A stretch of DNA of 29,575 nucleotides, taken from a virus. Below, one piece after another: positions 1,186 to 20,732 of this stretch. A program made the position numbers and the translations under genes. Numbering within the stretch: position 1 is the first letter of the stretch; every line of letters starts with the position of its first letter. The notes below the pieces were generated by a model. That model had not been told where the DNA came from. It searched no databases and saw only the letters and a program-made list of their open reading frames with translations. Where the stretch lies: positions 1-29,575 of IMG/VR virus record IMGVR_UViG_3300044821_000022; one strand, written 5' to 3'.

Positions 1186-2460
1186 ATGGGATTTCTAGAC
1201 AGCATCACTGGATCATCTGATAACTCCGCACAGGAGTATCTAAAACAAGCTCTCGCGGCTTATAACAATGTAAACGTTCCCACTACGGCGTCAGAAACTG
1301 TCAACGAGTTACCCATGCAATCGGTGCAGGGTACTGTCACGCCTCAGAACATCCAAGTGGCTGAACAAGCTCCATCAGAATATAATAACATTTCCCTTGA
1401 TCCTGCTACGCGGGCGGCCCAGATGTCGGCGCTACAATCGTACACAGACATCGCTAATTCTGGTGGGCTTGACGCAGAATCTAAACTGGCGATTCAACAG
1501 GCCATAGATGCCGCCAATGCTCAATCTAGAGGCGCTCAAGGCGCTATAATGAACCAAGCCCAAGCAATGGGACAAGGCGGTGGTGACTTCGCTTTAACAC
1601 AGCGTGCGATAGCAGCACAAGGAGCTTCTAACACAGCGGCCACCCAGGGAATGCAAGCCGCAGCAGAAGCTGAAGCCAATAGAGAAGCAGCTCTTAATTC
1701 TATGGCGAATATCGGCGGATCTATTAATGCTTCAGATTACGGCCAGGCAGCGAACAAGGCGGCATCCCAAAATACGATTAATGCGACAAATACAGGGGCA
1801 AGAAACGCTGCTAATACAGGCAACGTGTCTAATCAGATACAGACCGGCGAATTTAATACAAATACCGCTCAAGGTGTTAATGCTGCGAATACAACCGCTG
1901 GGCAAAATAAAGTTTATTATAACGCCAGTCTCCCTCAACAGCAGTTTAATAACGAACTAGCTAAAGCATCTGGTGTCGCCGGTGTTGATGCTACACGAGC
2001 AAACGCGGCACAAGCTGCTACGAATGCTAACAATGCTTTCACAGGTTCTTTACTTGGTACAGCCGGCACAGTGGCGGGAGCAGCGCTCGGTGGTCCTGCC
2101 GGAGCTGTTATTGGCAATCAAGTGGCAAAAACAGCAGCACCAAAATCTAATAATGCTTCTGCAGGAATAAACGCGGCTCACGGCGGTTATATGTGCTATG
2201 CTGACGGCGGTGTGGCTCACGACCACGGTATCTGCATGAAACTCGGTGGACACGTAGGCGGTGAAGCCTCAGTGCCTGGCGATAGTGAAACTAATGACAC
2301 GATCCCAGCCATGTTGAGTCCTGGTGAATTAGTTATCCCTCGTTCAGTACCTAAAGACGGAAAACATATGGAAGAGTTTGCACGGAATGCCCCAGTGCAC
2401 GGTACAGATAAAAAGGTGGATCTCACTGGATTCACGTCGGGCTATAAAAGGAGTCGCTAA
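1186..2460 (+). CDS. Internal virion / DNA-ejection-type protein (Ala/Asn/Gln-rich)
   Basis: A 424-residue protein with AGGAG 9 bases upstream of its ATG. Residues about 80-280 are Ala/Asn/Gln-rich and probably helical. A glycine-zipper-like hydrophobic stretch (TAGTVAGAALGGPAGAVIG, about 291-309) could insert into a membrane. A YADGG motif follows, and then a C-terminal segment with NDTIPAMLSPGELVIPRS, a signature often seen in phage virion proteins. Position among other virion genes and composition fit an internal or ejected protein, as in the T7 gp14-gp16 group; there is no specific homology I can name. Confidence 0.7.
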   Translation: MGFLDSITGSSDNSAQEYLKQALAAYNNVNVPTTASETVNELPMQSVQGTVTPQNIQVAEQAPSEYNNISLDPATRAAQMSALQSYTDIANSGGLDAESKLAIQQAIDAANAQSRGAQGAIMNQAQAMGQGGGDFALTQRAIAAQGASNTAATQGMQAAAEAEANREAALNSMANIGGSINASDYGQAANKAASQNTINATNTGARNAANTGNVSNQIQTGEFNTNTAQGVNAANTTAGQNKVYYNASLPQQQFNNELAKASGVAGVDATRANAAQAATNANNAFTGSLLGTAGTVAGAALGGPAGAVIGNQVAKTAAPKSNNASAGINAAHGGYMCYADGGVAHDHGICMKLGGHVGGEASVPGDSETNDTIPAMLSPGELVIPRSVPKDGKHMEEFARNAPVHGTDKKVDLTGFTSGYKRSR

Positions 2461-2461
2461 C

Positions 2462-4147
2462 ATGCCTTTAAATCACGGAAAATCAAAAGAAGCTGTCAGC
2501 AAGAATATAAAGACGGAAGTGGAAGCTGGCAAGCCGCAGGATCAAGCTGTAGCGATTGCTTTAAACACGGCGCGTGAAGCTGGGGCTGACATTCCTAAGA
2601 AACATATGGCTGAAGGCGGAGCCGTAGGTAGCATGGATGAAAGTGCGGAAAAATTTGACCAAGGAATGGAGAACGCTAACGCGCAGCATGACTCAGACGC
2701 TGTTCGATCTTATCTAGCAAGTAAATTCCACGATCTCACGAACCCTACTACAGAACAAATTCCTGCCCAACAGCCACAGCCAACTGGTATGTCTGAAACA
2801 GAGATGGCTAAAAAACAAGGGGAAGGTATGGCAGATGGTGGCTATCCTCACGTGACATTTCTGGAAAACGTCAGCACCCCTGAAATGAAGAAAACGGTCC
2901 ATTTAGAAGATCCTTCTGGTGCGCATGGTAATAAGATAACCACTGGTCATGAAGAAAACTACGCTGAAGGCGGCGCCATTCACAAGGCCGAAGGGCGAGA
3001 TAAAGAGCCAGCCAAACCCGCAGATATTGATATGTCACATGAAAAGAAGTTACATTCGATCTATAAAGCGATGGGAATTAAGGGCTATGCTGATGGCGGG
3101 CCAGTAGATCAAACACCTATCGATCCTTCAGGAATGCCTAATCCTAGCGATCCTACATATTGGGATCAGATAAAAGCTGCTATGGCTAAGCTAGCCGCCC
3201 CAGCCGGTGCTATGGCTGCGCCTCTCGAAGGTGCTGCTAGAATGGCCGCTCCGCTTGCTCCTGCAGCTGTCGGTGCGGTTAATAGGCTCACGGGTGCATC
3301 TTTGCCAGTTCCGGCTGTTCCAGCTCCTCAGACAGCAAATCTGGGTGCTCCGACGCCGCTCTCCGCGCAGATGCCTCCAGCAATACCAGCAGCCCCAGTG
3401 GCTCCCCCGGTGGGTGGCCCAGCTGCTAACACAGGCGCTCCTGATTTAAAGAACCTGTTCAATCAGGATACATCCAAACTTACTGAAGGAGTGAATCCCG
3501 AAGATAGGCAGAATTTAGCAAACGCCACTCTTGGTCAACAGCGTGGGCTAGGTTCTATCGTAGCTGAAGCCGTTGCCGGATTAGGTGATGCTCTGGCTGC
3601 TAAAGGCGGAAGAGAGCAGCACTCATTAAAGGACATCTTCTCGATGCAAAAACAGCAACGAGATGAAGCGCTTGCCAATTTTGATAAAGCGCGTCAGGAT
3701 AGACTTCAAAAACTAGACCTGCAAACTAAGATGGGAAATAACTCAATCCAGAAACTAGCCGCGCAAGACGCTTATGGCACAGACGAGTCTCTAAATAAGC
3801 AACTTGGCGCTCCTCCGGGAACACTTCATAAAGATCTACCACTGTACATGCAGATGATGACGGCTAAAGTAGCACAACAAGAGAAGGATTCAGATCTCTA
3901 TATGAAAGCGCATACTCAAGCTGCTAATGATATAGACTCGGCGATTAAAAACGCCGGCATGCTTAATATAAAGCCAAGTCCAGCGCAAATTCAAGCTAGT
4001 GGCGCAAAACTTGCCGACCAGTATTACAATCGAGCTAAAGGAAATGTCCTGTTTCAACCGTCAGATGGGCAGAAACCCGTATGGATCCCAGCCCAGAACC
4101 TTCAAAAGGCGAAGCAGATGGATCCTCACGGTACTACCATTCAGTAA
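2462..4147 (+). CDS. Internal virion protein with repeated A(D/E)GG motifs
   Basis: The chosen start is the ATG at 2462, with AAGGAG 8 bases upstream. A longer open frame from 2378 overlaps the previous gene and lacks a comparable ribosome site. The 561-residue product opens with MPLNHGKSKEAVSKNI and GKPQDQAVAIAL, a small conserved phage module (GKSK...GKPQ.QAVAIAL). Four copies of [MY]A[DE]GG follow (about 2608, 2830, 2962 and 3088). A Pro/Ala-rich linker (about 3190-3440) then leads to a long helical C-terminal half with charged heptads (KQQRDEALANFDKARQDRL). An internal or ejection protein is inferred from context. Confidence 0.7.
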   Translation: MPLNHGKSKEAVSKNIKTEVEAGKPQDQAVAIALNTAREAGADIPKKHMAEGGAVGSMDESAEKFDQGMENANAQHDSDAVRSYLASKFHDLTNPTTEQIPAQQPQPTGMSETEMAKKQGEGMADGGYPHVTFLENVSTPEMKKTVHLEDPSGAHGNKITTGHEENYAEGGAIHKAEGRDKEPAKPADIDMSHEKKLHSIYKAMGIKGYADGGPVDQTPIDPSGMPNPSDPTYWDQIKAAMAKLAAPAGAMAAPLEGAARMAAPLAPAAVGAVNRLTGASLPVPAVPAPQTANLGAPTPLSAQMPPAIPAAPVAPPVGGPAANTGAPDLKNLFNQDTSKLTEGVNPEDRQNLANATLGQQRGLGSIVAEAVAGLGDALAAKGGREQHSLKDIFSMQKQQRDEALANFDKARQDRLQKLDLQTKMGNNSIQKLAAQDAYGTDESLNKQLGAPPGTLHKDLPLYMQMMTAKVAQQEKDSDLYMKAHTQAANDIDSAIKNAGMLNIKPSPAQIQASGAKLADQYYNRAKGNVLFQPSDGQKPVWIPAQNLQKAKQMDPHGTTIQ

Positions 4148-4162
4148 ATAGAGGGCTTTAAT

Positions 4163-6046
4163 ATGGCATTAGACTTTACAGCACTACAAGGTACTCCAGC
4201 TGAAACAGGCCATCTAGACTTCTCTGCTCTAGGGGCCGTCCCTGCTGTTGGGGGATCACCAGATGAAGAAACAAGTGCTCTAGGAGCTGCAGGACGTGGA
4301 GCCGTTGGTATGTTGCCACTTGGCAACCAAGCGTATTCTGCTATAGCGGGAGCCGTTGAACATAAACCGTACACACAAGAGCGTCAAGAGCTCGACAAAG
4401 AGATAGAATCAGATACGGCCAATCATCCTCTAGCTCGACTCGGCGGTCAAGCAGCTGGAGTCGTAGCTCCGGCATTACTTACCGGAGGCGCAAGCCTACC
4501 AGGTGGAGCCATTACAGAAGGCGCTCTTATGGGCGCTGGATTTGGAGCTGGAAACGCCATAGACACACTAGCTAGTGGTGGAAGCGGAGAAAAAGCCGCG
4601 ATGGAAGGCATTTTAGGCACAGCGGCAGGCGCAGCAGGTGGAGCGGCTGGCAAAACCCTCGGCAATGTTATCACGAAGGTGGCGAAACCGTTTGTCACCT
4701 CGCATGACGAGCTTATGGCTGAAGCGACAGCGGGCATTCTTGGCGGCACTACACGACAAATTAGAGCACTTCCAGGTAAGAACCCAGTACAAACACTGAA
4801 TAAATTAGGACAAGACATGTCTAGCTATCGTGTGGGTAATGAGCCATTGATAGCAGTAACAGATCGTATGCCGGCACGTCTCGATAAGTTTATAGCGCTT
4901 CAGAAACAATCCGGCCAAGTGATAGGTGATACAATTAAAAATGCTGGCGCGCCTCCGATGTCTGCTCAACCAGTCACAGATGAGTTAAACGCGGCTTTAA
5001 AGTTTGCTACACCAGACGATCAAGCTCAGATGAAAGCTGTTATAGATGAAGTACAGAAGTACGCGGATAAAGATGGAACCATTCCATTTATGCGTTTGCA
5101 ACAGTTGAAAAGTGAACTTGGAGATAGAGCATTTGAAGGTCAAGGAAGCCCGGTACTTCAATCAGCTTACCACGTCGTCAGTGACGTCCAAGATAGAGAA
5201 CTAGAAAAGCTTTCATCTACTATCAACAAGCCAGCCTTTGACCAAGCTAAGAATGCGTATCAATTAACATCTAGAGCGATCCCTATGCTTCGGATGGCCG
5301 TCTCTAAAGAAGTAGGGGGCAAGACGAACGTCTTAATGCCAGGAGCCGCGCTTCTATCTGGTCACCCAATAGTGGCAGCCGGCGCTCTTGCAAAGAACCG
5401 CATTGCACAGATGGGAAGTGGCGCTATGTTTAAGGGTATGCAATCTCTACCTGAAGGTACAGGAGCCGCGCTAAGTGCTCTCCCAGGAAAAGCAGGTGGT
5501 CAAATAGCAGGGATGGCCGTGCAACAAAATATGGGAGAAATAAAACCCGTACCAGGAAAAGGCGTCGTTCCTTCTCCGAGCACAACGACGCCTAATAGGT
5601 TAAACATCGATCATCCAGCACTGTCGCAATGGAAATCAGTCTTTCAGAAAAACGCGATGAACGCTAAGAATCCAGGCGAAGTAGATAAGTCGCACGATGT
5701 CACCGACTTCGTCCTCAGCCAACGGGACCCAGGTTATGCAGCGGCTAAGCAGAAAGCGGCTGATGAACCTATGCCAGAAATGCCGATACAACCGCAACAG
5801 CCGGTAAAGATGGCAGAAGGTGGAGTAGTAGAGTCTCCTGAAGAGATAGAGAAGCGGCACGCATTCGGAAGCAATCTTGAAGGGCTTTCGAATCTTATGA
5901 AGAACCCAGTGCACGAAGCGCAGCCTGAGCCTGAGACATTGCCCACTACGTCCGGCGTGAACTTTAATGAGTCACTGTTGGGCAATGATTTTGAAGCTAA
6001 AGTAAAGGCGTATTTAAAGGAGAAAGAAGATGCCCAGTCTCGATAA
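4163..6046 (+). CDS. Large internal virion / DNA-ejection protein
   Basis: A 627-residue protein with AGAGGG 8 bases before the ATG. Residues about 90-170 form long Gly/Ala-rich hydrophobic runs (for example LGTAAGAAGGAAGKTLG) resembling glycine-zipper membrane segments of ejected phage proteins. The middle (about 190-400) is helical and charged, and the C-terminal third is Pro/Gln-rich with one more MAEGG motif. It is the last of three large adjacent proteins of this type. The 3' end overlaps the next small gene by 17 bases. A role in genome delivery is inferred from composition and position, not from a recognised domain. Confidence 0.65.
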   Translation: MALDFTALQGTPAETGHLDFSALGAVPAVGGSPDEETSALGAAGRGAVGMLPLGNQAYSAIAGAVEHKPYTQERQELDKEIESDTANHPLARLGGQAAGVVAPALLTGGASLPGGAITEGALMGAGFGAGNAIDTLASGGSGEKAAMEGILGTAAGAAGGAAGKTLGNVITKVAKPFVTSHDELMAEATAGILGGTTRQIRALPGKNPVQTLNKLGQDMSSYRVGNEPLIAVTDRMPARLDKFIALQKQSGQVIGDTIKNAGAPPMSAQPVTDELNAALKFATPDDQAQMKAVIDEVQKYADKDGTIPFMRLQQLKSELGDRAFEGQGSPVLQSAYHVVSDVQDRELEKLSSTINKPAFDQAKNAYQLTSRAIPMLRMAVSKEVGGKTNVLMPGAALLSGHPIVAAGALAKNRIAQMGSGAMFKGMQSLPEGTGAALSALPGKAGGQIAGMAVQQNMGEIKPVPGKGVVPSPSTTTPNRLNIDHPALSQWKSVFQKNAMNAKNPGEVDKSHDVTDFVLSQRDPGYAAAKQKAADEPMPEMPIQPQQPVKMAEGGVVESPEEIEKRHAFGSNLEGLSNLMKNPVHEAQPEPETLPTTSGVNFNESLLGNDFEAKVKAYLKEKEDAQSR

Positions 6047-8845: not shown

Positions 8846-9060
8846 TTCCCAGCCGCCTTGCGCCAGGCTTCGAGCGCATCTTTATCTAATTTGCCCAATG
8901 GCACTTTATCTTCAAATAAACAAACTATAGTCTCTGCCGCTTCCAGCCGGGCGAGGAAGGCTCTAATTTCTTCGTCTGTATCGAAATAATTGCAAACGTC
9001 GATATCTGGCCATTCGTTTAATTTTCTTTTTAATTCTTTCAAATCCTCATCTGTGAACAT
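8842..9060 (-). CDS. Acidic helical hypothetical protein
   Basis: A 72-residue protein with high Asp/Glu content and a helical pattern (DEDLKELKRKLNEW, DEEIRAFLARLEAAE). AAGGAGAAAATAA precedes the ATG. It abuts the KOW-like gene upstream (stop and start adjacent). No family recognised. Confidence 0.6.
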   Translation of the reverse strand: MFTDEDLKELKRKLNEWPDIDVCNYFDTDEEIRAFLARLEAAETIVCLFEDKVPLGKLDKDALEAWRKAAGK

Positions 9061-9270
9061 TTATTTTCTCCTTAACGGTTTCTTTACTTTTATATAGTCT
9101 TCTCCAACTCGACAGGCGTATCCACTTGGCAACCTAATCGTATACTCATACCAGTAATCTGTTAATCCCAAATTATAACCCTCGAAGTCTACTACAATAC
9201 CGGTTTGTTTCGCATAGTAGCCTGTTGTTAGGACGACTTTTGTCCCGCAAGCTAATGGTGGCTTATTCAC
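9061..9270 (-). CDS. KOW/SH3-like small beta protein
   Basis: A 69-residue protein. CGTKVVLTTGYYAKQTGIVVDFEG resembles a KOW motif: a hydrophobic strand, then a G at the tight turn, then a second strand (G-I-V-V). The remaining strands (YWYEYTIRLPSG, YIKVKK) suggest a small barrel. KOW proteins bind nucleic acid or protein in transcription and translation; that role is only a suggestion. GGAGGATAAATT lies upstream of the start. Confidence 0.5.
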   Translation of the reverse strand: MNKPPLACGTKVVLTTGYYAKQTGIVVDFEGYNLGLTDYWYEYTIRLPSGYACRVGEDYIKVKKPLRRK

Positions 9271-9281
9271 AATTTATCCTC

Positions 9282-9404
9282 CTACGCCCATCCCCATAAT
9301 AACGCAGTAATTTGTTCGACCATACACTTTGCATTATCGTATTCATCGTTGTAAATGTTAAACTCTCCTTTACACCACACTGTTAATCCTTCGATATCGG
9401 TCAT
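9282..9404 (-). CDS. 40-residue hypothetical protein
   Basis: ATG with AAGGAGGG upstream, coupled to the previous gene by ATGA. The product is acidic with two Cys and a hydrophobic C-terminus (ITALLWGWA). No family recognised; the strong ribosome site is the main evidence. Confidence 0.5.
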   Translation of the reverse strand: MTDIEGLTVWCKGEFNIYNDEYDNAKCMVEQITALLWGWA

Positions 9405-9571
9405 TTAACCCTCCTTTTATTCAACCGCCAGCGGTAAATCCCCCACCCAATAATCAAGTAGACTAAGTATCCTATCAAGAGCGTCTGTAGACGCATAGAA
9501 GCACCAACATACACCCACGTCCCATCACTCCACAACCGTAGATATGTCCCTAACCCGTCTGTGATTGTCAT
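9401..9571 (-). CDS. 56-residue single-span membrane protein
   Basis: ATGA overlap with the upstream gene and GAGGAG 5 bases before the ATG. The C-terminal half has one transmembrane span (LLIGYLVYLIIGWGIY) followed by a very basic tail (RWRLNKRRVK), predicting an inside C-terminus. Unknown role. Confidence 0.6.
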   Translation of the reverse strand: MTITDGLGTYLRLWSDGTWVYVGASMRLQTLLIGYLVYLIIGWGIYRWRLNKRRVK

Positions 9572-9768
9572 GCTTTCTCCTCTGGTTTAGGCAACAGAAT
9601 ACTCAATCCCATCCTTACTCCTACGATCTTAGCGTGTAAAGGGCTATAGAACACCTCATCTGCCGCATGTAAGGTGGCATTCATCTTAGCCATATGCTCG
9701 AAGTACTTTTGACAGTCTTCTAATACAGCGTCAATCTTCTGTAATTCTCGTTGAACATTCTTGTTCAT
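9568..9768 (-). CDS. Helical hypothetical protein
   Basis: A 66-residue protein with a helical, coiled-coil-like N-terminus (VQRELQKIDAVLEDCQKYFEH) and a hydrophobic C-terminal segment (IVGVRMGLSILLPKP). It starts one base after the stop of the protease gene, in the same direction. No family recognised. Confidence 0.6.
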   Translation of the reverse strand: MNKNVQRELQKIDAVLEDCQKYFEHMAKMNATLHAADEVFYSPLHAKIVGVRMGLSILLPKPEEKA

Positions 9769-9769
9769 T

Positions 9770-10495
9770 TTAGTCGCCAGTTATCGCGTAGAGCAAATCA
9801 GGTTTCTTAAGTTTAGACTCAGCCAAAAACTTTAGCAGGTCCTTAGCTGGAACGCCACCACTAACACCGATCTCGCGGTCGTTAGAATCGCTCCATCCCA
9901 CGTCTGTTAAAGCGACAATCTCACCTTTTGCGTTCGTCCATGGGCCACCAGAATTGCCTCCGCGGATAGTGGCGTCAGTAAGTACCCACCGGTCATGCTC
10001 CCCGCTAATTATACCGTAACTAACGAACCAAACCATAAAACCTTTGATATTCCCTACCACTACAATAGGCTCCCCTGTTCGTACTTCGGTCGCTATAGTA
10101 GGCGTCTTATGCCCTAAAACTGGCGTCTCGAGCGTCAGGAGGGCCAAATCATTAGGAAGGTTGACGAATTTCACCTTAGCACGTACCACCTGAGCTCCAG
10201 GATACGGATAGATCCACATGTTTTTAGCTGAATGGTCGTCGCCTAACACATGGGCGCACGTAAGGACAGTTGTAGAGCTAAGGAGAATGCCGGTCCCACG
10301 GGAAATGCTTCCCATGTCCTCGTTGCTTATCAGAACAGTGAAATCCTGTACGGTCTTGACCACGGCGCCGCTTATAGCTGGAGCGCTATATCGGGAGTCT
10401 GGCAGCGTGACGCTGTGCTTAGGAGGCGTCAATTTAACGGCTAGGACAGCACCTAATGTGGACATACTGCACACTAATAAGATGAGTCGCTTCAT
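9770..10495 (-). CDS. Secreted trypsin-like serine protease
   Basis: A 241-residue protein with a Sec-type signal peptide (MKRLILLVCSMSTLGAVLA, cleavage near 19). The chymotrypsin-fold triad is visible: His82 in LTCAHVLG, Asp116 in NDLALL and Ser182 in RGGNSGGP. There is no PDZ domain, so it resembles the minimal protease part of HtrA/trypsin-like enzymes. AGGAGATCAG precedes the ATG. Substrate unknown; export to the periplasm is inferred. A secreted protease in an early phage operon is unusual, and degradation of an envelope protein or superinfection control are possible roles. Confidence 0.85.
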   Translation of the reverse strand: MKRLILLVCSMSTLGAVLAVKLTPPKHSVTLPDSRYSAPAISGAVVKTVQDFTVLISNEDMGSISRGTGILLSSTTVLTCAHVLGDDHSAKNMWIYPYPGAQVVRAKVKFVNLPNDLALLTLETPVLGHKTPTIATEVRTGEPIVVVGNIKGFMVWFVSYGIISGEHDRWVLTDATIRGGNSGGPWTNAKGEIVALTDVGWSDSNDREIGVSGGVPAKDLLKFLAESKLKKPDLLYAITGD

Positions 10496-10725
10496 TTCTG
10501 ATCTCCTTTTTTAGGCGATTTAATCCTAGCGGCTTTCATGCCCTGGAAGATTTTATGCTCTACCAACTCGGGATGGGCGTCTACGATCATATCAGGTTTC
10601 TTATACTCTCCCAACAATCTCGCCATATCAGCTCGAGTCTTAGGCTCCTTTGTTTTTGCCCATTCCATAAACTTAATATACTCGTCAGCGTTAGTAAACA
10701 CGTCTATGCGCGTCATCTTTTTCAT
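10492..10725 (-). CDS. Hypothetical protein with charged C-terminus
   Basis: A 77-residue protein starting within the stop of the exonuclease gene (TGATG) and ending by overlap with the protease gene. The N-terminal half (TRIDVFTNADEYIKFMEWA) could form a small alpha/beta unit, and the tail is Lys-rich. No family recognised. Confidence 0.6.
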   Translation of the reverse strand: MKKMTRIDVFTNADEYIKFMEWAKTKEPKTRADMARLLGEYKKPDMIVDAHPELVEHKIFQGMKAARIKSPKKGDQK

Positions 10726-11444
10726 CAGATCTTCTCTCCTTTAAACCTGTGCCCACATTTTTTGCACTGATAAACCTGATATAGTCCGTCTGCACCGCGT
10801 TTTTTGCCGTACTTTATCGCGTATCGTCTAGGACATAGATGCGCAGGATTAGGCATACTTTGCGGCACCCATGCTTCTATTTTCTGATATAATTCTTCTG
10901 TCGACAACACGTCTTGTATATTGTAGCGCTTCATCTCATTCCACGCGGCAAGATTTCCTTTTAGACACTCACTCCAGAGAGACAGGCCTGGAAACTTGCT
11001 GTGTGATAGCTTCTTATACTTAGTGCAGAACTTTTCTGATAAGTATTCCAGCGAATGTGACGTAAAAGATGCCACCCGCTTCGCGATAAGATATGTGTCT
11101 AGATGTCTATACGGGCTAGGCGCCTTCATCCCGTGAAGCATGAATCGAGCGTTGATCTTCTTGGCATCAAACGCCTTTCCATTCTGTGTGATGACAATAT
11201 CAGCCTCATCGAGCAACCGCCATAGAGGCTTTAGGATAGGAAGATCATTGCCTGCCTTCAGCTTCCGTTGGTCGTAATACTGGATGCTAGAGGCCGGTTC
11301 TCCTAGCCATTTAGCACTCCAGGCCATAATGTGCCAGTCCTGTACAACCTGATTAAGACCTACAAACTGATCTTTAAGGTTCCACACGTACACAACCAGC
11401 GGCGACGTCTCGATATCCAGCACCAAGACTCGTTGTTTGACCAT
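10725..11444 (-). CDS. DEDD-family 3'-5' exonuclease (RNase H-like) with C-terminal zinc ribbon
   Basis: A 239-residue protein. Exo I is Asp10/Glu12 (LVLDIETSP), Exo II includes Asn88/Asp93 (ITQNGKAFD) and Exo III is Tyr174/Asp178 (YNIQDV), the DEDDy set. The fold matches phage RNase_H-like 3'-5' exonucleases related to the proofreading domain of polymerases. Residues 204-232 hold Cys204, Cys227, Cys230 and His232, a likely zinc ribbon for DNA contact. GGGGC lies upstream of the ATG. It lies near the DNA polymerase gene, which keeps its own exonuclease domain, so a separate repair or end-processing role is likely. Confidence 0.8.
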   Translation of the reverse strand: MVKQRVLVLDIETSPLVVYVWNLKDQFVGLNQVVQDWHIMAWSAKWLGEPASSIQYYDQRKLKAGNDLPILKPLWRLLDEADIVITQNGKAFDAKKINARFMLHGMKAPSPYRHLDTYLIAKRVASFTSHSLEYLSEKFCTKYKKLSHSKFPGLSLWSECLKGNLAAWNEMKRYNIQDVLSTEELYQKIEAWVPQSMPNPAHLCPRRYAIKYGKKRGADGLYQVYQCKKCGHRFKGEKI

Positions 11445-11611
11445 TAGTTGCCCCTTTTCCGTTCTTCGACGATAACTTCGGACAGTATTTCTGCACCGAT
11501 TATCATATCGAATAACACACGCACTGACGCCTCAAACCCTATGTTGCTATAGAGCTGTCGCATCTCAAACTTTAACTGAGCTTTATCTAACTCCGAAGGA
11601 TTTGTGGACAT
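11444..11611 (-). CDS. 55-residue helical hypothetical protein
   Basis: ATG with GAGG 6 bases upstream; its start lies inside the end of the neighbouring gene (25-base overlap). The product is helical and acidic (ELDKAQLKFEMRQLYS, LFDMIIGAEILSEVIVEE). It ends in the start of the exonuclease gene (TAATGG context). Unknown function. Confidence 0.55.
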   Translation of the reverse strand: MSTNPSELDKAQLKFEMRQLYSNIGFEASVRVLFDMIIGAEILSEVIVEERKRGN

Positions 11612-12345: not shown

Positions 12346-12569
12346 TGTGAATGCTCCATGCAAAACGTCATATAACGAGTCCAAGCCGCGTTCATATTCG
12401 GCGTGAATCTTAAACCTATGCTTATAGCGATGTTTCCAGCTTTAGAGACGTACGTTTTATCAGCGTTTCGCATAGCGTTTCCAAATTCTTCTATAATAAG
12501 CTCTAATTCTGCGGCTTCCCGTTGTTGTTTTAGCGTGTTAAACTTTACTTGTGTTCCAGTCTTGCCCAT
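12342..12569 (-). CDS. Hypothetical helical protein downstream of DNA polymerase
   Basis: A 75-residue protein with GGAGG 6 bases before its ATG. Its start lies within the last 32 bases of the polymerase gene. Helical pattern with charged N-terminal half (LKQQREAAELELIIEEFG) and a more hydrophobic C-terminus. No family recognised. Confidence 0.6.
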   Translation of the reverse strand: MGKTGTQVKFNTLKQQREAAELELIIEEFGNAMRNADKTYVSKAGNIAISIGLRFTPNMNAAWTRYMTFCMEHSQ

Positions 12570-14430
12570 ACCCTACCTCCGATTTGAGCCTTAGTGACGG
12601 TAGCCAACTAGGTGATCTTTCCATAACATCCTTTAACGCTTTAGTCGTAGTTTGCGCTGTTTCAGACGGACTAACTGCGATGATTTCATCATGAATCTGT
12701 CCCACGCATTGAATTCCACTTCGTTCAGCTCTTTCAATAGCGTCTTTACATAGTTCTCCCGCGAGAGCTTGGCAGACATTTTCGATAACCATCCCGCCAT
12801 AGATGCCAACAGGTTCCGCTTCGTACGTCTTAAAGAACGCGTCATAGTGCCACCCCTCTCGTTTCTTGTTAGCTTTCTTATCCATGTACCAGCCATGTCT
12901 AAGGTTTGGATACTGAATTGCTAGCCCCGAAGGTAGTATCACGGCGTTTTTTCTTACCTTGATGAACGGCGCGAACCACATGCACCCAACCGAGCCCGTG
13001 GATATGAGCGGCAAAATGGCATTTGCCTGTTCCCATAATTTGGGGACATTGAAGTATGTCGTGCGGTATAAATCTACGGTGCGCCATGCTTCATCCTCCG
13101 TTATGTCTTTTTTAAGCACTGTTTTAATCCGTGCTTGAAACTTCTTGGCTCCCATACCATACCCAAGACCTAAAATGCCTTCTTTTCCGAAGAATCGCTC
13201 CGTTGGATGATCTTTCTTGTTAATTGGGCGACCATATACTACTGAGGCAAAGTCTGAGTATACGTCTACGTCTTTAACGAAGGCTGACATAAGCCTAGGT
13301 TCCTTAGCCAACCAGGCGACAAGACGCGCTTCTATAGCGGCAAAGTCGCCTACTACGAGAGATTGACCATCAGGAGCACAAACAGCAGAGCGAAGAAAGC
13401 TGCCCCTAGTGAAATTTTGAGGATTACCACCAGCTCCTGATCCCCCCGAATAGCGATGAGTTTGTACAGCTCCTGAAAAGCCAACATCGAACGGGAAAGC
13501 GCCAGTTTTAGCGACAGCCAAAAGGCTTTCACCGCGTGTTTCAAGGAGGCTTGCTTTGCTTGCGATTCTGGCGGCATATAGTTCAGGATGGGAGTTTCTG
13601 AGAGCGTCAAGTCCAGTATCCGTTTTCGCAAACGCAGGGATCGCTTTTCCTGTTCTTGGTGACACTTTTGTTCGTACTGCGACGCCCCGTTCCATAAGGA
13701 GTTGTGCGAATTGTTTATCCGAGCTAAGGACTGTCTTTTCGATGCCCGACGCTTTGATGACCGTTTCCCTGCGGAGCTTTTCTTCTTGGACGCCTTTTTC
13801 GAGGACGGCCTCGGATAGTCTAAGCCTAGGTTCGAGAAAGGTTCGAATTGTCCAATCAATGGACCATAGCTGCGAGATGGGGAACTGTCCGATAAGCTTA
13901 TCATATATTCCTCCGCATAGATTAACGTCGTTGCAGCAATACTCACCTAAAGCTGCCAATTGTTCAGCCGTAGGATTCAGCACACCATCGCATGACAGCT
14001 CGCCTTTTGCAGGCAGCCCCAGATACTCGGCCAGTCGCTTTAACGAATAGCTTGACACATTCCCACCTATAACAGCTTTTGCTAGCCCCACGGTGTCCAT
14101 ATAGGCATGGGGTGGGAGCATATTGAACCGCCACCGCAGAATAGCGCCATCGAAACGGATGTTGTGCGCTACAAGCACCGTGTTCATCCAATCCACTGAG
14201 GCTACCCACGCCTCTATAGCGTGATCTCCGGCGATCCAGTGCGTCTTGGTGTCATCTAAGAAGCGATACCCTATCCCATGAGCTTTGAAACGAGTATCTT
14301 TAACGTACTGGACGATAGGCAACCCCTTAGGGCTTTCCTTAGTCTTCAAACAATAACCGCCCTTCTTATCGTAGAAGGTTTCGAAGTCGATGACTAGGAT
14401 GCGCTTACGGTCGTAAGTTAAAATGGCAAT
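12538..14430 (-). CDS. Family A DNA polymerase with 3'-5' exonuclease; ATT start proposed
   Basis: The 630-residue reading begins at ATT 14430. Exonuclease residues are Asp15/Glu17 (VIDFETFYD), Asn90/Asp94 (HNIRFD) and Tyr164/Asp168. The polymerase has motif A Asp362/Glu367 (GDFAAIEARL), motif B Arg412/Lys416/Tyr424 (FFGKEGILGLGYG) and motif C His580-Asp581-Glu582 (GQIHDEI). It copies DNA in replication. The first ATG/GTG/TTG-type codon, TTG 14349, would cut off the DFE metal ligands, whereas frame and family both require sequence upstream of it. AAGGG lies 8 bases before the ATT, and the start overlaps the preceding gene. No 5'-3' exonuclease domain is present. Confidence 0.9.
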   Translation of the reverse strand: MAILTYDRKRILVIDFETFYDKKGGYCLKTKESPKGLPIVQYVKDTRFKAHGIGYRFLDDTKTHWIAGDHAIEAWVASVDWMNTVLVAHNIRFDGAILRWRFNMLPPHAYMDTVGLAKAVIGGNVSSYSLKRLAEYLGLPAKGELSCDGVLNPTAEQLAALGEYCCNDVNLCGGIYDKLIGQFPISQLWSIDWTIRTFLEPRLRLSEAVLEKGVQEEKLRRETVIKASGIEKTVLSSDKQFAQLLMERGVAVRTKVSPRTGKAIPAFAKTDTGLDALRNSHPELYAARIASKASLLETRGESLLAVAKTGAFPFDVGFSGAVQTHRYSGGSGAGGNPQNFTRGSFLRSAVCAPDGQSLVVGDFAAIEARLVAWLAKEPRLMSAFVKDVDVYSDFASVVYGRPINKKDHPTERFFGKEGILGLGYGMGAKKFQARIKTVLKKDITEDEAWRTVDLYRTTYFNVPKLWEQANAILPLISTGSVGCMWFAPFIKVRKNAVILPSGLAIQYPNLRHGWYMDKKANKKREGWHYDAFFKTYEAEPVGIYGGMVIENVCQALAGELCKDAIERAERSGIQCVGQIHDEIIAVSPSETAQTTTKALKDVMERSPSWLPSLRLKSEVGYGQDWNTSKV

Positions 14431-14828
14431 TCGCCGGTCCCTTCACACGCCCCGCATTGTTTTTCGTTGGGTTTGAATCTTTCTTTTACAAATTCTGCTC
14501 CATTGATGTTAAAGAATACACCAGCCGCATGATCCTCATCCGTATCTCCACGCAACCAAGCCCGGAAGTGATTAAACGCCGACTGACGGAAACGATGATA
14601 TTCTGCCTCTCCTGTGGCTAATGTCCAATTTGCCACACCAGGCGTCACGTCAGGGTATTTAACGGCTCCCTTAGTGAGATGCTGAGCCCAACGATCGAAC
14701 ATCGGACCATCTACGATGCGCAGATAGTTTGTTTTTCCACCGACAGGTTCCCTTACCATCCCACTAGCGAACAGCTCTCGTCCGCCGCCGTCTTTTACAG
14801 TAAACTTATCGCCTGCCTTAGTTTCCAT
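14418..14828 (-). CDS. dATP/dGTP diphosphohydrolase-like protein (DUF5664 family)
   Basis: A 136-residue protein. Segments SGMVREPVGGKTNYLRI, DGPMFDRWAQHLTKGAVKYP, FRQSAFNHFRAWLRGDTDED and HAAGVFFNINGAEFV match the phage family once called DUF5664 and now described as the N-terminal domain of dATP/dGTP diphosphohydrolases. Known relatives hydrolyse dATP/dGTP and are linked to remodelled purine pools, but I cannot show activity here. The C-terminus ends in CGACEGTG, a CxxC with a DnaJ-like GTG. It sits directly upstream of and overlaps the polymerase gene. GAGGAATAAACC precedes the ATG. Confidence 0.7.
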   Translation of the reverse strand: METKAGDKFTVKDGGGRELFASGMVREPVGGKTNYLRIVDGPMFDRWAQHLTKGAVKYPDVTPGVANWTLATGEAEYHRFRQSAFNHFRAWLRGDTDEDHAAGVFFNINGAEFVKERFKPNEKQCGACEGTGELPF

Positions 14829-19711: not shown

Positions 19712-20113
19712 TTACGCCTCCATTCGACAGCTCTTTATATAATCTCTACGATTTCGTCGTTGCTCAGACGGCGTGGCCCATCGGCAATTATAGAACTCAT
19801 AATTTCCGTCGTTATTTACTCGATCTAACGAAGTGTTCTTTGGTCTATCTCCCATATCACGCAGAAAGTTCACGAACTCTTTCCACGATTCGTCAACTTT
19901 TATCCCACGCCCACCATAGTACTTATAGTTACTCGCGGCGGGATTTGTACAGCGAGCCCACATTGACGCCCATGATTGATAAGTCGGTGTCCATTCTTTT
20001 CCGATCGTATGACCATGTGTCCGGCGGTCTTTTTGTCCAGCTCCGAATCTTAAACCAAGCTTATGACCTGGTTTAAATCGTTTACCGTATGGATGCCCCT
20101 TCTTAAATGGCAT
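19712..20113 (-). CDS. HNH homing endonuclease
   Basis: A 133-residue protein read from ATG 20113 with GGGAGG about 6 bases upstream. Near the N-terminus is the basic KGHPYGKRFKPGHK region. The HNH core is RCTNPAASNYKYYGGRGI, SLDRVNNDGNYEFYNCRW and ATPSEQRRNRR, typical of phage homing nucleases that bind and cut a DNA site. It is inserted between the Cas4-type nuclease gene, whose 3' end it overlaps by 11 bases, and the RNA ligase gene. Confidence 0.85.
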   Translation of the reverse strand: MPFKKGHPYGKRFKPGHKLGLRFGAGQKDRRTHGHTIGKEWTPTYQSWASMWARCTNPAASNYKYYGGRGIKVDESWKEFVNFLRDMGDRPKNTSLDRVNNDGNYEFYNCRWATPSEQRRNRRDYIKSCRMEA

Positions 20114-20732
20114 TTGGTAACCTCCCAACGTCATCAAACATAGCGCGAAGTTTGAGGAACCTATTGAGTGGCCGCTTGCCTAATTTGAACACCTTGGTTG
20201 TCAGTTTGAACCGCGGCTTATCTTTGCTAACATGCACAATCATTCCTTCTTTCAACTCTATGCCAGTTTGCTCTTTATACGCTTGAGCATAAGCTACGAG
20301 CTGAAGGTCCATGTCTGGGTAGATACGCGTGCTAGTCTTCCAATCGAACAGCATCCGCTTCCCGGCAAACATACCTACTGCGTCTAAAGTACCTGAATAG
20401 GCATACTTATGGCTTACTACTTTGAGCTCTGTGGCATGGATTTCACCATTCACAGTCTTAGCCCACTCAATGAATGACGCCATCATACCATTTACCCGTT
20501 TCTGCATGTTGCTTGACAATTCACTGCTTGCTAAGTAGTAACGATCTGCTAAGTATTCATCTACGCAACGGTGAAACTCTGTTCCCACCTTGCTAGCAGT
20601 TTCTGTCTTACGTTCCGCTAGGTATCCCCACTTGTCTCGCCACGCATTAAGCCAAGGCTTTTCCTCTGACCCCGTTATGGTAGAGACCGAGGGATACCAA
20701 ACGCCATCGATGAATGTCTCACTGTGCGGAAT
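20103..20732 (-). CDS. Cas4/RecB-type PD-(D/E)XK nuclease; non-ATG start proposed
   Basis: Nuclease residues on the 209-residue reading from ATT 20732 are His54, Asp117 (GTLD), Asp130-x-Lys132 (FDWKTS) and the QxxxY of Gln144/Tyr148, as in Cas4/RecB-like exonucleases. The first GTG (20588) would remove a conserved N-terminal block (WYPSVSTI, EKPWLNAW, LAERKTETASK) that carries family features. That block reaches back to one base after the upstream gene's stop without any ATG, GTG or TTG. ATT 20732 has AGGA about 9 bases upstream; CTG 20747 is an alternative. Likely acts in recombination or DNA end processing next to the OB-like protein. Confidence 0.8.
   Translation of the reverse strand: MPHSETFIDGVWYPSVSTITGSEEKPWLNAWRDKWGYLAERKTETASKVGTEFHRCVDEYLADRYYLASSELSSNMQKRVNGMMASFIEWAKTVNGEIHATELKVVSHKYAYSGTLDAVGMFAGKRMLFDWKTSTRIYPDMDLQLVAYAQAYKEQTGIELKEGMIVHVSKDKPRFKLTTKVFKLGKRPLNRFLKLRAMFDDVGRLPNAI

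Follow-up and report, generated by a model that had tools for sequence, protein, structure and literature searches.

AUU start codons are known from cellular genes, although they are rare; pcnB has one. The infC gene of Escherichia coli, which encodes initiation factor IF3, itself starts with ATT, and non-canonical starts are repressed by IF3 (PMC5472188). The GTC start of sigR in Streptomyces likewise reduces expression, and IF3 represses it (PMC5472188). In Staphylococcus aureus, the AUU start of cvfC1 and the AUA start of ccpN are conserved, were found by comparison and ribosome profiling, and give roughly 10% of AUG expression in poor medium (PMC13009471). At the stop-start junctions of coupled E. 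coli genes (ATGA, TAATG), overproduction of IF3 inhibits re-initiation, an effect that a Shine-Dalgarno sequence weakens (PMC2268962).

The DNA polymerase gene analyzed here appears to share features with each of these systems. As in infC (PMC5472188) and pcnB, AUU is the sole plausible start, it is conserved, and low, IF3-sensitive initiation would be expected. Unlike infC and pcnB, which are cellular regulatory or RNA genes, this gene encodes a phage replicative polymerase whose AUU overlaps the upstream stop, and the phage lineage has further putative AUU starts. The conservation of a non-canonical start recalls cvfC1 and ccpN; those genes depend on extended Shine-Dalgarno pairing, whereas the pairing in the phage cases is ordinary or weak. 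The polymerase and sigR both have a non-canonical start, but the sigR codon is GTC and sigR is not a phage gene. A search of the open-access literature for AUU or ATT starts in phages gave no description of such a case. To our knowledge, no phage replicative polymerase has been described with a conserved AUU that is joined to the preceding stop and accompanied by other AUU starts in the lineage.

The sequence examined, referred to as the window, comprises 29,575 bases and is a virus record of IMG/VR; the polymerase gene lies on its minus strand. The features at the start of the gene are as follows.

12538..14424, minus strand: family A DNA polymerase gene that includes a 3'-5' exonuclease domain; counted from ATT 14424 up to the stop, it has 628 codons
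14347..14349, minus strand: TTG, the first conventional start, rejected; it lies downstream of DFE, and the aligned codon in L164 is CTC
14380..14388, minus strand: DFE exonuclease metal-binding motif (D12, F13 and E14 invariant in alignments), upstream of the first canonical start
14422..14424, minus strand: proposed start codon ATT, invariant in seven phages; the coding substitution pattern begins there
14428..14430, minus strand: alternative ATT, proposed earlier, 8 nt after AAGGG and conserved in none of six relatives
14439..14443, minus strand: AAGGG, Shine-Dalgarno-like, duplex energy -5.9 kcal/mol

The encoded protein matched Pfam DNA_pol_A (1.6e-22, above the cut-off) and phrog_17 (3.2e-69), with a DNA_pol_A_exo1 match (0.00025) just below the cut-off, and could be aligned to homologues along its full length. 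The polymerase A domain and the DFE motif both identify it as a family A polymerase with a 3'-5' exonuclease. The Pseudomonas phages KPP25 and phiR18 and Rhizobium phages have the same family A polymerase, at about 31-32% identity over nearly the full length.

The polymerase frame is open throughout from the TAA at 12538 back to a TGA at 14445-14443, and a search of this frame in the window from TGA 14445 to the DFE found no ATG, GTG or TTG. These results bear out a sequence-only reading of the window, which had noted that the frame reaches a TGA without any of the three codons and that the DFE (14388-14380) lies upstream of the first conventional start, TTG 14349. Standard gene-finding software would clip the polymerase because it has no normal start codon. 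Two in-frame ATT codons, 14430 and 14424, occur upstream of the DFE in the window. The same reading had placed the start at 14430, correctly noting an AAGGG 8 bases before it (14443-14439 on the minus strand), and had taken ATT 14424 as an internal codon.

To locate the start, we compared the gene with its homologues. Eighty IMG/VR loci of distant homologues were retrieved first, and 79 were readable through the start. All 79 had an ATG, GTG or TTG within 11 codons before the DFE, mostly at six codons; the wide family is thus not characterized by an ATT start. Closer phages (62-71% identity to the window) were found by an alignment-based scan and a primase scan, and the start was readable in 15 clade members, the window included. 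Seven of the 15 (the window, L164, L167, L169, L170, L172 and L173) had no usable canonical start, and every one of the seven had ATT-YTA-ACY-TAC. The canonical codons in the frames of the six relatives were all out of place, namely upstream ones in L170 and a GTG within VVV directly before the DFE in L169, L170 and L172. The remaining eight clade members had an ATG, GTG or TTG at the position of ATT 14424 or one codon after it: the junctions read GTGA (L166, L175 and L176), TAGTG (L174), TTG (L165 and L168) and ATGA (L180), while L171 reads ATG-GTG, its ATG occupying the ATT position. A pattern search for more ATT polymerase starts returned 24 stretches, in which a polymerase was found only in the known clade members; L186, considered as a further case, was a chance match.

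In the alignment of the seven starts, ATT 14424 was invariant, while none of the 24 columns before it was. Over codons 2-13 after ATT 14424, 136 of the 183 differences among the seven phages fell at codon position 3, while upstream of the ATT the differences were spread about evenly over the codon positions (91/76/80). Differences mainly at codon position 3 are the signature of translated sequence. The polymerase start is most likely ATT 14424, which would give fMet-LTYDRKRILVIDFE. An ATT start is thus strongly supported, as the sequence-only reading had proposed, but its position is most likely 14424, where the invariance in seven phages points to a start and not to an internal codon. The alignment with homologous phage polymerases that had been suggested as a check found ATT in all six relatives at 14424, but a variable codon at 14430 (TAT, TTT, GAT, GTT, CTT or GCC).

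It is unlikely that the window phage instead starts at ATT 14430, two codons upstream, which would add Ala-Ile: none of the relatives has ATT at that codon, and L164 has an in-frame stop at the codon immediately before the aligned position. The AAGGG, however, ends 8 nt before 14430, a better spacing than the 14 nt for 14424, which exceeds the usual distance, and since this spacing favors 14430 in the window alone, that codon is kept as a rival for the window phage. The polymerase Shine-Dalgarno sequence is good in five relatives and weak in L164. Duplex energies were computed with a generic anti-Shine-Dalgarno tail; with this tail, energies at the ATT starts were like those of canonical genes, except in L164, where there was almost none.

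A start further in, either at the Ile codon ATC 14400, eight codons downstream, or at TTG 14349, would agree with the distant homologues, which begin only 5-7 residues before the DFE; the codon at 14400 is ATH in every case, and TTG 14349 is the first conventional start. However, the LTYxGKR stretch upstream of 14400 is kept with mostly synonymous changes and must therefore be translated. A start at TTG 14349, which had been named as an outcome that would refute the ATT start, would drop the DFE, and this TTG is not conserved in the relatives. We regard an inner start as extremely unlikely. The other such outcome, a missed base whose correction restores an ATG, is contradicted by six other IMG/VR records that share this architecture. 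The window is itself a metagenome record, in which a sequencing or assembly error could have erased a normal start, but the six relatives are separate metagenome records and thus exclude such an error in the window; the chance of it is negligible.

We then analyzed the junction with the preceding gene, which has the following features.

14418..14828, minus strand: upstream gene, weakly like the dATP/dGTP diphosphohydrolase N-terminal domain (PF18909, 4.6e-5, below the cut-off)
14418..14420, minus strand: TAA stop of the upstream gene, inside ATTTTAA; the last codons, TTT TAA, overlap the ATT

In all seven ATT phages the upstream gene ends with TTY-TAA in the other frame, so that its stop and the polymerase start share ATTYTAA. 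The overlap was 7 nt in every ATT member checked, with both genes on the same strand. The arrangement is that of a translationally coupled pair, with a start that overlaps the upstream stop on the same strand, as in the E. coli ATGA and TAATG junctions (PMC2268962). The clade relatives show GTGA, ATGA, TTGA and TAGTG at the polymerase junction, like the E. coli coupling overlaps, and those with canonical starts mostly have the classic XTGA overlap. Unlike the E. coli junctions, the putative AUU starts lie in ATTYTAA (polymerase) and in TAATT (a 905-codon open reading frame in G004). In each of the seven phages, the A of the polymerase ATT occupies the third position of a four-fold degenerate codon in the upstream gene (CCA in four, GCA in two and CTA in one); the chance of seven A's, as a product of base frequencies, is near 4.5e-5 if they are independent, which related sequences are not. 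If the upstream stop changed from TGA to TAA, TTG would become TTA, and initiation could then pass to the ATT located three bases upstream.

It was also considered that the polymerase may arise as a fusion protein if ribosomes undergo -1 frameshifting on the TTY TAA that closes the upstream gene. The polymerase frame is indeed -1 relative to that gene, and the junction is conserved. However, the junctions read CCA TTY TAA, CTA TTC TAA and GCA TTT TAA and contain no X_XXY_YYZ slippery heptamer, the Phe-tRNA would mismatch ATT after the slip, and in eight clade members this junction carries an independent canonical start. No shared RNA structure was found at the junction and polymerase start. 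Frameshifting would also leave unexplained why the exonuclease and 905-codon genes described below have ATT instead of ATG. We therefore consider it very unlikely.

To look for other starts of this kind, we set the open frames of the window against those of its relatives' long contigs, using the aligned starts of orthologues. The genes found are listed here.

20103..20732, minus strand: exonuclease gene (phrog_298, 4.6e-37; PDDEXK_1, 1e-4), the second putative ATT start in the window
20730..20732, minus strand: exonuclease ATT start, lying 1 nt past the TAA stop (20736-20734) of the preceding frame, with GAGGA at 20745-20741
L206, G004 45278-47920, minus strand: 905-codon open reading frame, family not recognised, whose ATT lies within TAATT; a small HNH-like gene immediately precedes it
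L216:18110-18985, minus strand, and L223, G013 36829-37689, minus strand: C5-cytosine methyltransferase, candidate ATT start with GGAGG or GAGG 7-8 bases before it
L207, G005 8961-10196, minus strand: tail-fibre gene with a Collar domain, candidate ATC start with GGAGG before it; relatives have TTG or ATG there

The exonuclease ATT 20732 aligned with an ATG in eight relatives (G001, G002, G003, G004, G006, G007, G008 and G011), and the first canonical codon in the window gene, GTG 20588, is 48 codons in; G005 has ATT too. Relatives of the 905-codon frame have ATG, TTG or GTG where G004 has ATT. The methyltransferase ATT start in G008 and G013 was judged from Pfam and solved structures and not from orthologues with canonical starts: the Pfam match runs from residue 2, solved relatives align from residue 1 of the ATT-started protein, and the first ATG falls inside the SAM-binding motif (motif I). 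Three other candidates were rejected, G004 14305-14748 and G006 11050-11457 as internal alignments and G004 31677-32099 since it has an ATG upstream. ATT starts thus appear to recur in this phage group, in the polymerase, exonuclease, methyltransferase and 905-codon genes, together with one ATC. This recurrence, the ATT at 20732 and the overlap of the polymerase start with the upstream stop are additions to the sequence-only reading.

The control set was drawn from more distant phages and comprised 73 dereplicated loci, 5-10 kb pieces around the polymerase that add up to 597 kb. The same pipeline found none without a nearby canonical codon among 319 aligned control starts, whereas the clade gave at least 7 among 405 (Fisher p 0.02, or 0.003 counting 10 cells); both p values are generous because cells that belong to one gene family lack independence. 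Relative to the upstream stop, the ATT starts lie at -7, +1, -14 and -1, while 48% of canonical starts lie within -20 to +3. The methyltransferases read TAAcATT, where the frame ending at the TAA is short and a candidate gene only. By gene family, a tendency of the ATT starts to sit at upstream stops is suggestive at most.

Taken from sequence comparison, these results make it highly probable that the polymerase is translated from AUU 14424, either by re-initiation after the upstream UAA or by fresh initiation. Ribosomes ending the upstream gene would stop at the UAA that overlaps the AUU (AUUUUAA) and would re-initiate at AUU 14424, or others would start afresh there, with the formyl-Met initiator tRNA, so that the first residue would be fMet. 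The literature on IF3, AUU starts and re-initiation leads one to expect that less polymerase is made and that its synthesis is linked to translation of the upstream gene. Translation of the polymerase would be coupled to that of the upstream gene, its output would fall below that from an AUG, and IF3 would modulate initiation at the AUU; such a low output and IF3 link would agree with the published non-canonical starts. The polymerase AUU could serve as a natural test case of why selection keeps a weak start and of re-initiation at non-AUG codons. Where a rule admits only ATG, GTG and TTG, the polymerases, exonucleases and methyltransferases of phages are shortened in viral databases, and catalytic motifs such as the DFE are lost.

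Five of the ten long clade contigs (G001, G005, G006, G007 and G013) encode a CAU tRNA with a C1xA72 mismatch, a CUCAUAA loop and an encoded CCA. A C1xA72 mismatch, CAU in a CUCAUAA loop and a CCA end are hallmarks of initiator tRNA. The genes are located as follows.

L195:1043-1117, plus strand: initiator-like tRNA
L207:15292-15366, minus strand: initiator-like tRNA
L212:12407-12481, minus strand: initiator-like tRNA
L214:11537-11611, plus strand: initiator-like tRNA
L222:14046-14120, plus strand: initiator-like tRNA

We call these tRNAs initiator-like because, of the three G-C pairs 29-31:39-41, only G30-C40 is invariant across the five. No such tRNA was found in the 29.6 kb window, which, judging by its relatives, probably represents part of a genome of about 50 kb. 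A near-cognate start occurred in five of five tRNA-positive and three of five tRNA-negative long contigs, a difference that was not significant. A functional link between the tRNA and the AUU starts is hypothetical. It could be imagined that the AUU starts and the encoded tRNA form an altered initiation programme with start-codon choice as a timing switch: genes with AUU starts, replication genes included, would be raised during infection as the balance of initiator tRNA and IF3 shifts, and the phage tRNA, with its relaxed anticodon stem, would act together with the AUU starts. We hold this to be unlikely. A search for an IF3-like gene in these phages found none. The phage-encoded initiator-like tRNAs in the lineage make a possible takeover of initiation directly testable. 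A tRNA-Ala call by ARAGORN in G009 proved to be a tandem GC-rich pentapeptide-like repeat array and no tRNA. This array and a similar one in G013 are located at L218:9324-9710 and L224:11773-11918.

The polymerase tree was nearly star-like, with the window and L164 as sisters (100/99). A single clade of the seven ATT phages was weakly rejected (p-AU 0.033), which makes repeated gain or loss of the ATT start, or its movement by recombination, probable. A search of genome contigs for the host gave one distant match, on an archaeal contig, and searches with the primase and two plus-strand window proteins found no informative isolate relative. An Rfam search of the window gave no match. Three large genes at 1186-6046 on the plus strand of the window are common to ten clade contigs; they have hardly any PHROG matches, and among isolate phages no relative of useful extent was found. 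The window also encodes, at 10725-11444 on the minus strand, a second RNase H-like 3'-5' exonuclease (DNA_pol_A_exo1, 1.3e-6) besides the exonuclease domain of the polymerase itself.
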